Source of the DNA: Synechococcus sp. LA31
GTDB lineage: Bacteria > Cyanobacteriota > Cyanobacteriia > PCC-6307 > Cyanobiaceae
Assembly (NCBI RefSeq): GCF_018502385.1
Contig: NZ_CP075523.1
Location: forward strand, 1,674,001 to 1,738,000
Length of the DNA: 64,000 nt
Direction of reading: 5' to 3'
The notes under the pieces were generated by a model. It searched no databases. It saw only the letters and a list, made by a program, of their open reading frames with translations, and had not been told where the DNA came from. The stretch's first letter is position 1; every line of letters starts with the position of its first letter. This document shows positions 25,491-30,181 of this stretch, one piece after another. The position numbers and the translations under genes were made by a program.

Positions 25491-25548
25491 AGCCGTTCAT
25501 GGCCAGCGCCGGCAGCCTATGGGAAGCTCAGCGCCTGAGCACCGATCC

Positions 25549-26946
25549 ATGCCGGACAGCCGCAACCTGCCGCCTCGCAACCTCGTTGCCACCAGTGGAG
25601 CGATCGCCCTGCTGTTGTGGATCTGCGCCGCGGCTCGTCATGCCCTGCTGCAGAGCAACGCCTACGACCTGGGGCTGTTTGACCAGTGGATCTGGCTGGT
25701 AAGCCGGGGCCTGCCCCCGATCTCCTCGATGGAGGGGGTACACATCCTTGCCGACCACGGCGCCTGGGCGCTTTACGGCGCAGCACTGCCCTACCGCCTA
25801 CTGGCGAGCGTGCAGTGGCTGTTCGCCAGCCAAGCTGCCGCCCTCAGCTTCACCGCACTGCCGCTGTGGTGGGTCGGCCGTCAGGCCGGCCTAAGCCCGC
25901 GGCTGTGCTGGCTGACCTGCGGCCTCTGGTGGCTGCAGCCGGTGGTGTTCAACGCCAACCTGTTCGACTTTCACCCCGAGGTGTGGGTGATGCCGGCTCT
26001 GGCCGGCTGTTACTGGGCCAGCCGGGCGGAGCGCCCGTGGCTCTGGTTTGCCTTGCTGCTGCTGCTGCTTGGCTGCCGCGATGGCCTGGTGCTGGTGGTC
26101 GCCGGCCTGGGGCTGGAGCAAGCCCTGCGGCGCCGTTGGATCTGGGCCGGCGCCGCCATCGGCCTGGCGCTGGGCTGGCTGGCCCTGCTCAACCGCTGGC
26201 TCTATCCCTTGCTCAAAGGCAGTGATACAGGGCCCAAAGCAGCTGGAGCGCTGTTCTCCTACCTCGGCAACAGCCTGGATGAGGTGCTGATCAACATGGT
26301 GCTCCGGCCCGACCTGCTGATCAGGCATGTGGACTGGGCCGGCGGAGTGGTGTACCTGCTGCTGATCAGTGTGGCCCTGGCGCCATTTTGGCGGCGGATC
26401 TCGCTGCCGGTCCTGGCGGGAGGGATTCCACTGGTGGTCGTGAATGTGCTCTCGGAGGAAGCACCCCAGCGCACCCTGGTGCACCACTACAGCCTGCCAG
26501 TGGCGGTGATCGCCGTGGTGGCCGCTATCGACGGCCTGGCCCTGCAGCCGCGCCAGCCGGTGCCATGGCGTCGCTTTGGATGGAGCGTGGTGTGCTGGGC
26601 GGCCCTCGCCAAACCCTGGTTCTTCACAGGGCCCTACCTCGAACGGTTGCATCAGCGACCTGCCATCCAGCAGGCAATCACTGCCGTACCGGCGGAGGCA
26701 CGGTTAAGCACCACGAGTTATCTCGTACCGCAGCTAAGCCAGCGCAAGCAAGTGAGCTTCCCTCGCGCCCGCCGCGATAAAACGCAGCTCGATCAACTCG
26801 ATGCGTTACTGCTCAATCCACTTGATCCGGGTTGGGGATCCTCAGCCCAACGCCAGAAACAACTGCTGCGCGCAGCAAAAGCTGCCGGCTGGACCTGCCG
26901 GAACTGGGCGAATGGGCTCGAGCTCTGCCAGGCGCCAGAGGGTTGA
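25549..26946 (+). CDS. DUF2079 integral membrane protein, second copy
   Basis: The 465-residue protein from ATG 25549 shows the DUF2079 signature YDLGLFDQWIWLVSRGLPPI and LADHGAWALYGAALPYRLLA, more canonical than the first copy. About ten hydrophobic helices follow, and then a soluble C-terminal portion. A GT-C fold transferase role is inferred from the family. It is only distantly similar to the copy at 20922. An in-frame start at 25519 is possible. Confidence 0.82.
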   Translation: MPDSRNLPPRNLVATSGAIALLLWICAAARHALLQSNAYDLGLFDQWIWLVSRGLPPISSMEGVHILADHGAWALYGAALPYRLLASVQWLFASQAAALSFTALPLWWVGRQAGLSPRLCWLTCGLWWLQPVVFNANLFDFHPEVWVMPALAGCYWASRAERPWLWFALLLLLLGCRDGLVLVVAGLGLEQALRRRWIWAGAAIGLALGWLALLNRWLYPLLKGSDTGPKAAGALFSYLGNSLDEVLINMVLRPDLLIRHVDWAGGVVYLLLISVALAPFWRRISLPVLAGGIPLVVVNVLSEEAPQRTLVHHYSLPVAVIAVVAAIDGLALQPRQPVPWRRFGWSVVCWAALAKPWFFTGPYLERLHQRPAIQQAITAVPAEARLSTTSYLVPQLSQRKQVSFPRARRDKTQLDQLDALLLNPLDPGWGSSAQRQKQLLRAAKAAGWTCRNWANGLELCQAPEG

Positions 26947-27320: not shown

Positions 27321-29507
27321 ATGCGTGAGTTACACGCCGGCGACCTTCTCCATCTCGTACCTCGGGGCGAACCCTGGCGGATCCGCCAGGTGCTCCCGCA
27401 GCGACTGCGGATCTCGAGCCCAGCGCTGCTGAACAATCCAGCGCTGCAGCAGCAGCTACTCAACGCCAGCCTGCATTTGGCCTGGGTGCAGGCAATCCGG
27501 ATCAACAGCCTGGCCGGCTGCATGGTGATCGAGCACAACGGCCGCCGCCCCCTGCGCCGCAAACAGCTGCAGGCCCTGCTGCACCTGGCGCTGCAGCAGG
27601 GCCACCACACATCGCTACAGCTCACACCACGGGCCTCGAGCTCCGCCCTGTGGCGGCTCGGTGGCACCTCTGGCGCGTTGGCCGCCGTCACGCTGCTGGA
27701 GTTACCGGCCTGGCCAGGCCTGCTGCTGTTCATCAGCCTCTGCTACCTGCCTCTGGCGGCCCGCTGCCTGCAAAGGCTCGCTCAGCGGCAACTGGCCAGT
27801 GGATGGTTGGACCTGTTTTGGTTTTCCAGCCTGCTGGCCCAGGGCAACCCCGCTGCGGTGCTTCTGGAGTGGACGCTGGAAACCACCAACCAGCTGTTCA
27901 AGGCCTGGACGCCATCACCCAGCTATGCCGAGGCCTTTGATCAGCAGCTACAGCAACGGCTCACCGACCTGAGCTTTCCTGTTCTGCAGGGCGATGGGAG
28001 CTGGCAGCCCCAACCCTTCGCCCTGCTTGAAGCTGGCGATCGCCTGCAGTTAGTAGCAGGGGATCCCATGCCGGCCCACGCCCTGGTGGTGGCTGGGCAG
28101 GCCATGGTGAGCACCCGATGGCGCGATGGGGATCCGCGCCTGCTCAGCGCCCGGGCCTTCCAACAACTTCCCTTTGGAGCAACAGTGATCGAGGGCAGGC
28201 TGGAGGTGCGCTTAGTGCGCAGCCCGCAGCTCGATCCGGAACGACGGGCCCTGCAACGACTCCTCCATCAAGCCCAACGGCAGGGCTCATCCCACGGGAC
28301 ACCCTCTCTGCTCCAGCGGGCGGAGCAATGGCACCAGAGCTCTGTGCCCTACTTACTCCTTGCAGGAGCAGCCCTTCTGGCGATCGGGCCCCACGGAAGT
28401 GCAGGGGCCCTAATGCAGTTCGATCCCGCCAGCGACTGGCAGCTCACAGCCACCCTCACCTACGGCAACGCCCAGCGGGATCTGCTCTGGCAGGGAGTGC
28501 TGCTCCGCAGACCAGAAGCTATTGATGCGCTAGCCCACTGCCGCCAGCTCCTCGTGAGTGAGGCCGTGGTGCTAAGCACCAGTAGCTGGCGCCTCGGCGG
28601 TCTGCATCCCCTGCCCTTTCTGATCAGCAGCGAGGAGCTGATTCAAATCGTGGCTGGTTTTCGCTGCCAGCAAAAACCCCATGGCCTCCACGCCTTGCGC
28701 AGTGCCCTGGAAGCCGAAGATCTGCTGCCAGCGATGGTGGAGGGAATCCATCCGCTGGGCAGCGATGGGCAACAGGGCCTTATCAACGGCGTGGTGCATC
28801 AGCTCGGAGGAGCGGCCATGCTGCGGCAACTGGGCCTAAAAGCACCTGCCGAACTGATCACTCCACCTGGGGAAACCCTGCTCTACCTCGTGCGCCAAGG
28901 CCAGGTGGTGGGAGCAGTGGGGTTCGAATTGCAACTCTCGCGAGCGCTCGTGCGGGGGCTACGGCAGCTGCAAAGCGCCGGCTGGCAATTGGATCTGCTG
29001 GTCGACAGCCAAAGCGAGCTCGTGGAACATCTGGCTGGGCGGCTGCATAGGGCTGCTGCCGCGATCCATCTCGCCGGCAATCACGTAGATCGCAGCCGCA
29101 AGTTGCGTGCATCGCACTCCACAGGCGAGCCCATCGCCATGCTCGGCTGCAGCGCCATCGATGGCCTCAACCTGGCGCAGGCTGATCTCTCGATCGAACT
29201 ACTCAGCCGAGACCGCGGCCTCAGCAGCGCAAACGCCGATCTGGTGGTGCGGCCCGAAGCACTCGGCAACCTGGTGGCCTGTCAAACGTTGGCCTTAGAC
29301 GCAGCCCAGCGCCACCGCCGAAATCTCGCCCTGGTGCTCGTGCCGCACATCTCAGTGGTGCTGCTCAATCTGCTGCTACCGATCAACCCCGTACTGGCAG
29401 TGCTCACGGTGGATCTGCCCGTTCTATTGACCGAGCTGGGCCGCATCGGCAGTGGCCAAGACGGCATTCAAAAAACCACTAAAAAGCCCCGCCGCGGCGG
29501 GGCTTGA
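27321..29507 (+). CDS. P1B-type-ATPase-like protein lacking catalytic motifs (pseudo-ATPase)
   Basis: The 728-residue protein can be followed as a degenerate heavy-metal P-type ATPase. It has an N-terminal HMA-like region (residues 1-100), membrane helices near 110-145 and 165-185, and an actuator-like domain with LLEAGDRLQLVAGDPMPAHA. The segment before the phosphorylation site (TYGNAQRDLLWQGVLLRRPE) aligns with the family. The key residues do not: CPC reads DPASD, TGE reads DGD (269-271), the phosphorylated Asp of DKTGT is Ser419 (VVLSTSSW), and the hinge GDGxND is SAIDGLN (611-617). The frame is intact, so it may have a non-catalytic role. It converges on psaL. Confidence 0.75.
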   Translation: MRELHAGDLLHLVPRGEPWRIRQVLPQRLRISSPALLNNPALQQQLLNASLHLAWVQAIRINSLAGCMVIEHNGRRPLRRKQLQALLHLALQQGHHTSLQLTPRASSSALWRLGGTSGALAAVTLLELPAWPGLLLFISLCYLPLAARCLQRLAQRQLASGWLDLFWFSSLLAQGNPAAVLLEWTLETTNQLFKAWTPSPSYAEAFDQQLQQRLTDLSFPVLQGDGSWQPQPFALLEAGDRLQLVAGDPMPAHALVVAGQAMVSTRWRDGDPRLLSARAFQQLPFGATVIEGRLEVRLVRSPQLDPERRALQRLLHQAQRQGSSHGTPSLLQRAEQWHQSSVPYLLLAGAALLAIGPHGSAGALMQFDPASDWQLTATLTYGNAQRDLLWQGVLLRRPEAIDALAHCRQLLVSEAVVLSTSSWRLGGLHPLPFLISSEELIQIVAGFRCQQKPHGLHALRSALEAEDLLPAMVEGIHPLGSDGQQGLINGVVHQLGGAAMLRQLGLKAPAELITPPGETLLYLVRQGQVVGAVGFELQLSRALVRGLRQLQSAGWQLDLLVDSQSELVEHLAGRLHRAAAAIHLAGNHVDRSRKLRASHSTGEPIAMLGCSAIDGLNLAQADLSIELLSRDRGLSSANADLVVRPEALGNLVACQTLALDAAQRHRRNLALVLVPHISVVLLNLLLPINPVLAVLTVDLPVLLTELGRIGSGQDGIQKTTKKPRRGGA
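29480..29504 (-). terminator. Rho-independent terminator of psaL
   Basis: The minus strand reads AAGCCCCGCC, GC, then GGCGGGGCTT, followed by TTT. It lies 27 bases past the psaL stop and inside the last codons of the convergent ATPase-like gene, where it encodes the tail KKPRRGGA. Confidence 0.85.
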
Positions 29508-29530: not shown

Positions 29531-30022
29531 TCAGTTCACGCTCCAAACACCACCGGCAATGTTGACCAGCGGAGCCACGATGGTGGTGCCGGCCAGGAAC
29601 CATGCGAAGGCAGCGCCGCCGCAACCACCCAGCCAGAAGCCGCTGGCGAATTCAGCCCAGCCGGCCTTGGTGAACAGATCGGCCGGGGGGTTGTCGATGG
29701 TGGCGTCAGCCGGCTGCACATTGGGGCCACGACCAGCCGTGCCATAGATCGAGAGGCACACCGTGAGGATCGACACCAGGCCAACTGCCGCCAGCAAACC
29801 AGCGGTGCTGGCGTATTCAGTGGCGCGCAGCGGGCCGGTGATCGCGAAGGGGCCGTAGAGGAAGAAGCCATGGGCCATTCCCACTTCCAAACCGCGACGG
29901 TTGGGGGAGAGGGCAGGGCGATAGGCCGGCAGGGCGTTCAGAAAAGCGCGGCTGAAGTAGCTGCTGTTGACGGGAGTGGCCAAATTGCCGACACAGGGGT
30001 CGGCGACGGGGGTCACGGTCAT
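29531..30022 (-). CDS. psaL: Photosystem I reaction centre subunit XI
   Basis: PsaL forms the trimerisation interface of cyanobacterial photosystem I in the thylakoid membrane. The 163-residue product begins [20 protein letters not shown] and contains [20 protein letters not shown], three hydrophobic segments and the conserved C-terminal region [19 protein letters not shown]. Length and motifs match the family. psaI lies 42 bp upstream on the same strand, the usual cyanobacterial pairing. Confidence 0.97.
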
Positions 30023-30064: not shown

Positions 30065-30181
30065 TCAGTCGCGGGCTTCGATCACGTTGAACAGCAGGGC
30101 CATGGCCACCGCAGGAGCCAGGATCCCGACAAGGGGCACGAACACCGAGGGCATCCAGGCGGCGACGAAGTCTCCGGTCAT
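30065..30181 (-). CDS. psaI: Photosystem I reaction centre subunit VIII
   Basis: This 38-residue single-helix protein reads MTGDFVAAWMPSVFVPLVGI and continues with a hydrophobic helix ending FNVIEARD. That is the characteristic PsaI sequence, including the conserved C-terminal NxIE(A/R) segment. PsaI sits beside PsaL and stabilises it in the trimer region. ATG 30181 is the only reasonable start, and the gene leads into psaL. Confidence 0.93.
   Translation of the reverse strand: MTGDFVAAWMPSVFVPLVGILAPAVAMALLFNVIEARD

Follow-up and report, generated by a model that had tools for sequence, protein, structure and literature searches.

A conserved pseudo-P1B ATPase of Synechococcus sp. LA31 that co-occurs with one catalytic P-type ATPase

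The 64,000-nucleotide stretch of Synechococcus sp. LA31 analyzed here (the window) encodes a P1B-type ATPase-like protein that has lost its catalytic residues and is almost certainly unable to pump. Among 300 related genomes, its family is found in exactly those that contain one catalytic P-type ATPase with a DxxTG site in M4, and the protein is regarded, with moderate confidence, as serving that specific enzyme as a partner or regulator that does not itself pump.

The P1B-type fold and its missing motifs

The gene (27321..29507, + strand) is an open frame of 728 codons from ATG to stop, and its 728-aa product is termed the A-type pseudo-ATPase. The heavy-metal ATPase model TIGR01525 matches it with an E value of 6.5e-17, although the score of 61.6 bits lies below the curated cut-off of 346.25, and actuator-domain homology spans residues 224-356 (27990..28388, +; PF00122, E 6.1e-6). 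The profile of the pseudo-ATPase family in turn matches CopA (E 1e-29). An AlphaFold2 model built from 16 members (pLDDT 77.5, pTM 0.69) has ZntA in the E2.Pi state (4umw) as its best Foldseek match (E 3.8e-30), followed by CopA, ATP7B and a cadmium ATPase. The top PDB matches are all P1B, so the P-type fold is present in the protein. The original prediction of an intact frame aligning with heavy-metal P-type ATPases is thus borne out by single-sequence, profile and structure comparison alike. The whole fold is retained (HMA-like domain, actuator, P and N domains, and membrane helices), and the protein descends from a P1B-type pump lineage.

An HMA_2-like domain lies at the N terminus (residues 21-73; 27381..27539, +); the match of the window protein to PF19991 is below the curated cut-off (E 8e-4), and the same model matches nine of the 16 members. 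Within this domain, LPQRLR and RINxLAG are conserved, and R28, R30 and N62 are invariant. The basic LPxRLR N terminus resembles the CoBaHMA domain, a likeness that is treated as a lead. That domain, reportedly described by Gaschignard and others in 2024, probably binds anionic partners, lipids among them.

Motif positions were read from an alignment that includes catalytic relatives. DKTGT is replaced by SEAVV, with Ser413 (28557..28559, +) at the position of the phosphorylated Asp (V-S413-E-A-V-V-L-S419); this position had been assigned wrongly to Ser419, which corresponds to the last T of DKTGTLT. TGE has become D269-G270-D271 (28125..28133, +), TGD has become VDS, and GDGxND is replaced by G609-C-S-A-I-D614 (29145..29162, +), in which the first Asp is lost and only the second hinge Asp, D614, is kept, as it is throughout the pseudo-ATPase members. 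The CPx motif of M4 reads P369-A-S371 (PAS) within QFDPASDW (residues 366-373; 28416..28439, +), of which F367, P369 and W373 are invariant in the 16-member alignment. M6 contains D698-L699-P700 (29412..29420, +), with P700 invariant, where catalytic relatives have NNGS. The claim that every catalytic motif (CPC, TGE, DKTGT and GDGxND) had been replaced therefore stands on the alignment, with the second hinge Asp kept, and is extended by the loss of the HP motif and of GxGxxG in the nucleotide-binding (N) domain. Such a protein cannot form an aspartyl-phosphate. In summary, it resembles P1B-type heavy-metal ATPases such as CopA and ZntA in fold, domain order, N-terminal HMA-like domain, M4 break and M5-M6 pair, but differs from them in lacking DKTGT, TGE, CPx, HP and GDG and in falling below the family cut-off.

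Family, selection and the psaL neighborhood

In a search of 201 family genomes, close orthologues (69-90%) turned up within the genus of LA31 and more distant ones (30-40%) in another three genera; the motif losses are the same in all of them. A second paralogous group, the B-type, is roughly 20-28% to the window protein and has two copies in the LA31 genome (G000:C1 about 137.0 and 257.0 kb). Together, the pseudo forms make up a single clade against catalytic relatives (SH-aLRT 100), with long branches flagged and the attachment point unsure. The M4 motif QFxPxxDW is new and common to most pseudo-ATPases across genera. Across the phylum (292 genomes searched), DKTGT is intact in the full-length proteins from other families that are most closely related to them, and the clade appears to be confined to this picocyanobacterial family within what was searched, other phyla having been scanned for close relatives only. 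The pseudo-ATPase family is old and conserved. Copies on plasmids were looked for, and none was found. Several relatives in other families (L060, L061, L069, L073 and L074) keep DKTGT but have GEG for GDG and are possible halfway forms.

Between orthologues of the window gene, dN/dS is 0.16-0.25 (Nei-Gojobori) and is lowest, at 0.04-0.08, in the M3-M4 segment (residues 336-400) that includes QFDPASDW. The corresponding values are 0.10-0.15 for the catalytic partner and 0.16-0.27 for the B-type. The window protein is thus subject to purifying selection, if of a slightly weaker kind than a working pump experiences. The disappearance of all catalytic motifs might be expected of a decaying pseudogene, but full-length, stop-free orthologues in five species, dN/dS well short of 1 and a new motif common across genera make this reading scarcely credible. 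Local decay of the window gene is ruled out by dN/dS together with motif losses common to its orthologues. Retention as a non-pumping protein, as originally proposed, is strongly supported by losses common to one clade, by purifying selection and by the P-type fold.

The gene converges, as had been described, on psaL (29531..30022, -; PF02605, 1.7e-60) and psaI (30065..30181, -; PF00796), and a DUF2079 membrane protein is encoded upstream (25519..26946, +; neighbor comparison). Five species of the genus carry the gene, and in each of them it adjoins psaL (the window, G115, G200, G507 and G537), an arrangement that would suit an accessory or assembly factor of photosystem I. However, the gene is absent there from 15 of the 20 congeners in which psaL was recovered, even though nearly all share the flank on the far side of psaL. 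The site is empty in G165 (L155), where the DUF2079 gene directly faces psaL. Outside the genus, no orthologue adjoins psaL; some accompany a catalytic P-type ATPase, and others lie elsewhere. The psaL neighborhood, seen in five species of one genus and not across lineages, is therefore a lineage-specific location. The suggested link to photosystem I was accordingly rejected on comparison of the congeners, and a function in that complex is very unlikely.

Co-occurrence and gene order with a catalytic ATPase

The catalytic P-type ATPase of the LA31 genome (824 aa; L037:9609-12083, equivalent to G000:C1 about 259.6-262.1 kb) passes TIGR01525 with 472.6 bits against the cut-off of 346. It keeps DKTGT and has NNGS in M6, and the CPx of its M4 is replaced by DxxTG (MFDLGTG). 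Cyanobacterial DxxTG ATPases are the closest catalytic relatives of the pseudo-ATPase, with which they have in common an HMA_2-like N terminus, the absence of CPx and a genomic module; unlike it, they retain DKTGT, in most cases TGES and GDGxND, and the NNGS of M6. Such ATPases (the L037 gene and its relatives in L060-L086) are widespread in cyanobacteria, with LDxxTGxRVSxPT in place of CPx. The P6 ATPases (CtpE class), a catalytic family, were set aside. As there is no Cys at the M4 site of the catalytic partner, its substrate is perhaps a hard divalent cation, and the partner points to an uncharacterized class of cation ATPase without cysteine at the metal site.

In 300 family genomes, the pseudo-ATPase profile (E <= 1e-45) and the catalytic ATPase (E <= 1e-100) match the same 27, and none has one alone. 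Weaker A1 profile matches in these 27 genomes are the catalytic protein itself, and DKTGT is missing from every pseudo-ATPase that was read by motif. Seven genera are represented among the 27 genomes, and in at least six of them other genomes lack both genes, so the pair appears, from its spread over genera, to have been gained or lost together repeatedly. About half of the genomes with the catalytic pump have the B-type and no A-type, so the A-type is not itself obligatory.

The genes of the module run in the order glycine-zipper protein, DUF5132, HMA_2-like/DUF454 protein, HSP20-tailed protein, DUF5132, catalytic ATPase, HMA_2-like/TM protein and B-type pseudo-ATPase. The last three form a unit (catalytic ATPase, HMA/TM protein and B-type) in many genomes. 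In G105 and G080 (L048 and L049), an operon consists of the catalytic ATPase, a DUF454-like gene and the A-type, and in G193 and G181 the A-type, the B-type and the catalytic ATPase lie within 9 kb. In the LA31 genome, the A-type stands alone, 1.44 Mb from the catalytic ATPase; it is also solitary in G047 and G127 (L044 and L046), beside a cation-efflux family gene. Within this genus, copies of the B-type lie directly 3' of an Na/Ca-exchanger-family gene in three loci (L038:7029-10572, L051:6478-12234 and L054:5965-9408).

The HSP20-tailed protein of the module (L037:12552-13601) matches Get3d of Nostoc and Arabidopsis by sequence in its C terminus and by fold over the whole chain (Foldseek 8egk, E 8.4e-14). 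Of the 27 pair-bearing genomes, 26 contain it, as do two others, and it is almost always encoded close to the catalytic ATPase. Known Get3d proteins (Nostoc All4481 and Arabidopsis), which have the same fold, keep the P-loop and ATPase activity (PMC10248533), whereas the P-loop pattern was not found in the eight HSP20-tailed sequences inspected. This protein is likely a second pseudoenzyme. The glycine-zipper salinity gene glzT (PMC7771541) was also considered, and no link with it could be shown.

Possible roles of the pseudo-ATPase

Regulation of active enzymes by related pseudoenzymes is well known for kinases. Exact co-occurrence, operons in common with the pump, membership of a single clade, dN/dS and the fold all count in favor of a partner of the DxxTG ATPase, and the distance between the two genes in LA31 counts against it, as does the lack of an A-type in about half of the pump-bearing genomes. 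Joint presence in genomes is no proof of contact, and the module may just be passed on as a unit. If the two proteins do interact, the basic HMA_2-like N terminus would most likely dock either on the membrane or on another HMA_2-like protein encoded in the module. The membrane domain, with QFxPxxDW and the M6 motif D(L/I/V)P holding it in place, would then associate with the pump or a related transporter. The associated pseudo-ATPase could then set the assembly, location or activity of the pump. Other copies may serve other cation transporters, e.g., those of the Na/Ca-exchanger family (L038, L051 and L054). The scaffold or sensor role of the original prediction is a possibility for which a specific likely partner can now be named. 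It is possible, if doubtful, that the association goes further and that the two form a heteromeric P-type ATPase, with the dead paralogue as an obligate subunit of the pump, in a module with the P-loop-less Get3d-fold protein; such a pump might have a new specificity for hard metals or supply a store enclosed by a membrane.

A pseudo-ATPase that acts by itself, as a metal or lipid sensor, a scaffold or a passive channel, would have only regulation and inheritance in common with the catalytic ATPase. Its solitary position in LA31 and in G047/G127, the copies beside Na/Ca-exchanger-family genes and the HMA_2-like N terminus are consistent with such independence. Exact co-occurrence with one catalytic ATPase, together with tightly packed operons containing both genes in several genera, argues against it, and this reading is considered unlikely. 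A membrane-bound storage or mineral compartment, ferrosome-like or calcyanin/CoBaHMA-like, of which the dead ATPase would be a structural component, is less probable still. The module does contain HMA_2-like proteins, a glycine-zipper protein with an HMA-like N terminus, DUF5132 and the Get3d-fold protein, an architecture reminiscent of calcyanin and the CoBaHMA domain, but NCBIfam gave no Fez or calcyanin match.

A precedent for the use of a P-type ATPase-like module in another activity is apicomplexan guanylyl cyclase alpha, which has an appended P4-ATPase-like domain and whose ATPase-domain activity is reported to be essential (PMC7858053). That module is eukaryotic, of the P4 type and fused to a cyclase, and is likened to the pseudo-ATPase by description only. 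No prokaryotic family of pseudo-P-type ATPases was found in the open literature, to which the search was mostly confined, subscription papers lying largely outside it, and a 2023 review, on a term search, makes no mention of one. The perfect co-occurrence of a conserved dead pump with a live one offers a testable system for the ATP-free reuse of the P-type fold.

The glycine-zipper protein of LA31 (L037:14441-15349) combines an HMA-like N terminus with glycine-zipper repeats, an arrangement reminiscent of calcyanin. In other cyanobacterial families, proteins with two HMA_2-like domains each (L062:272-1333, L070:4074-5105 and L072:3740-4927) adjoin the catalytic ATPase.
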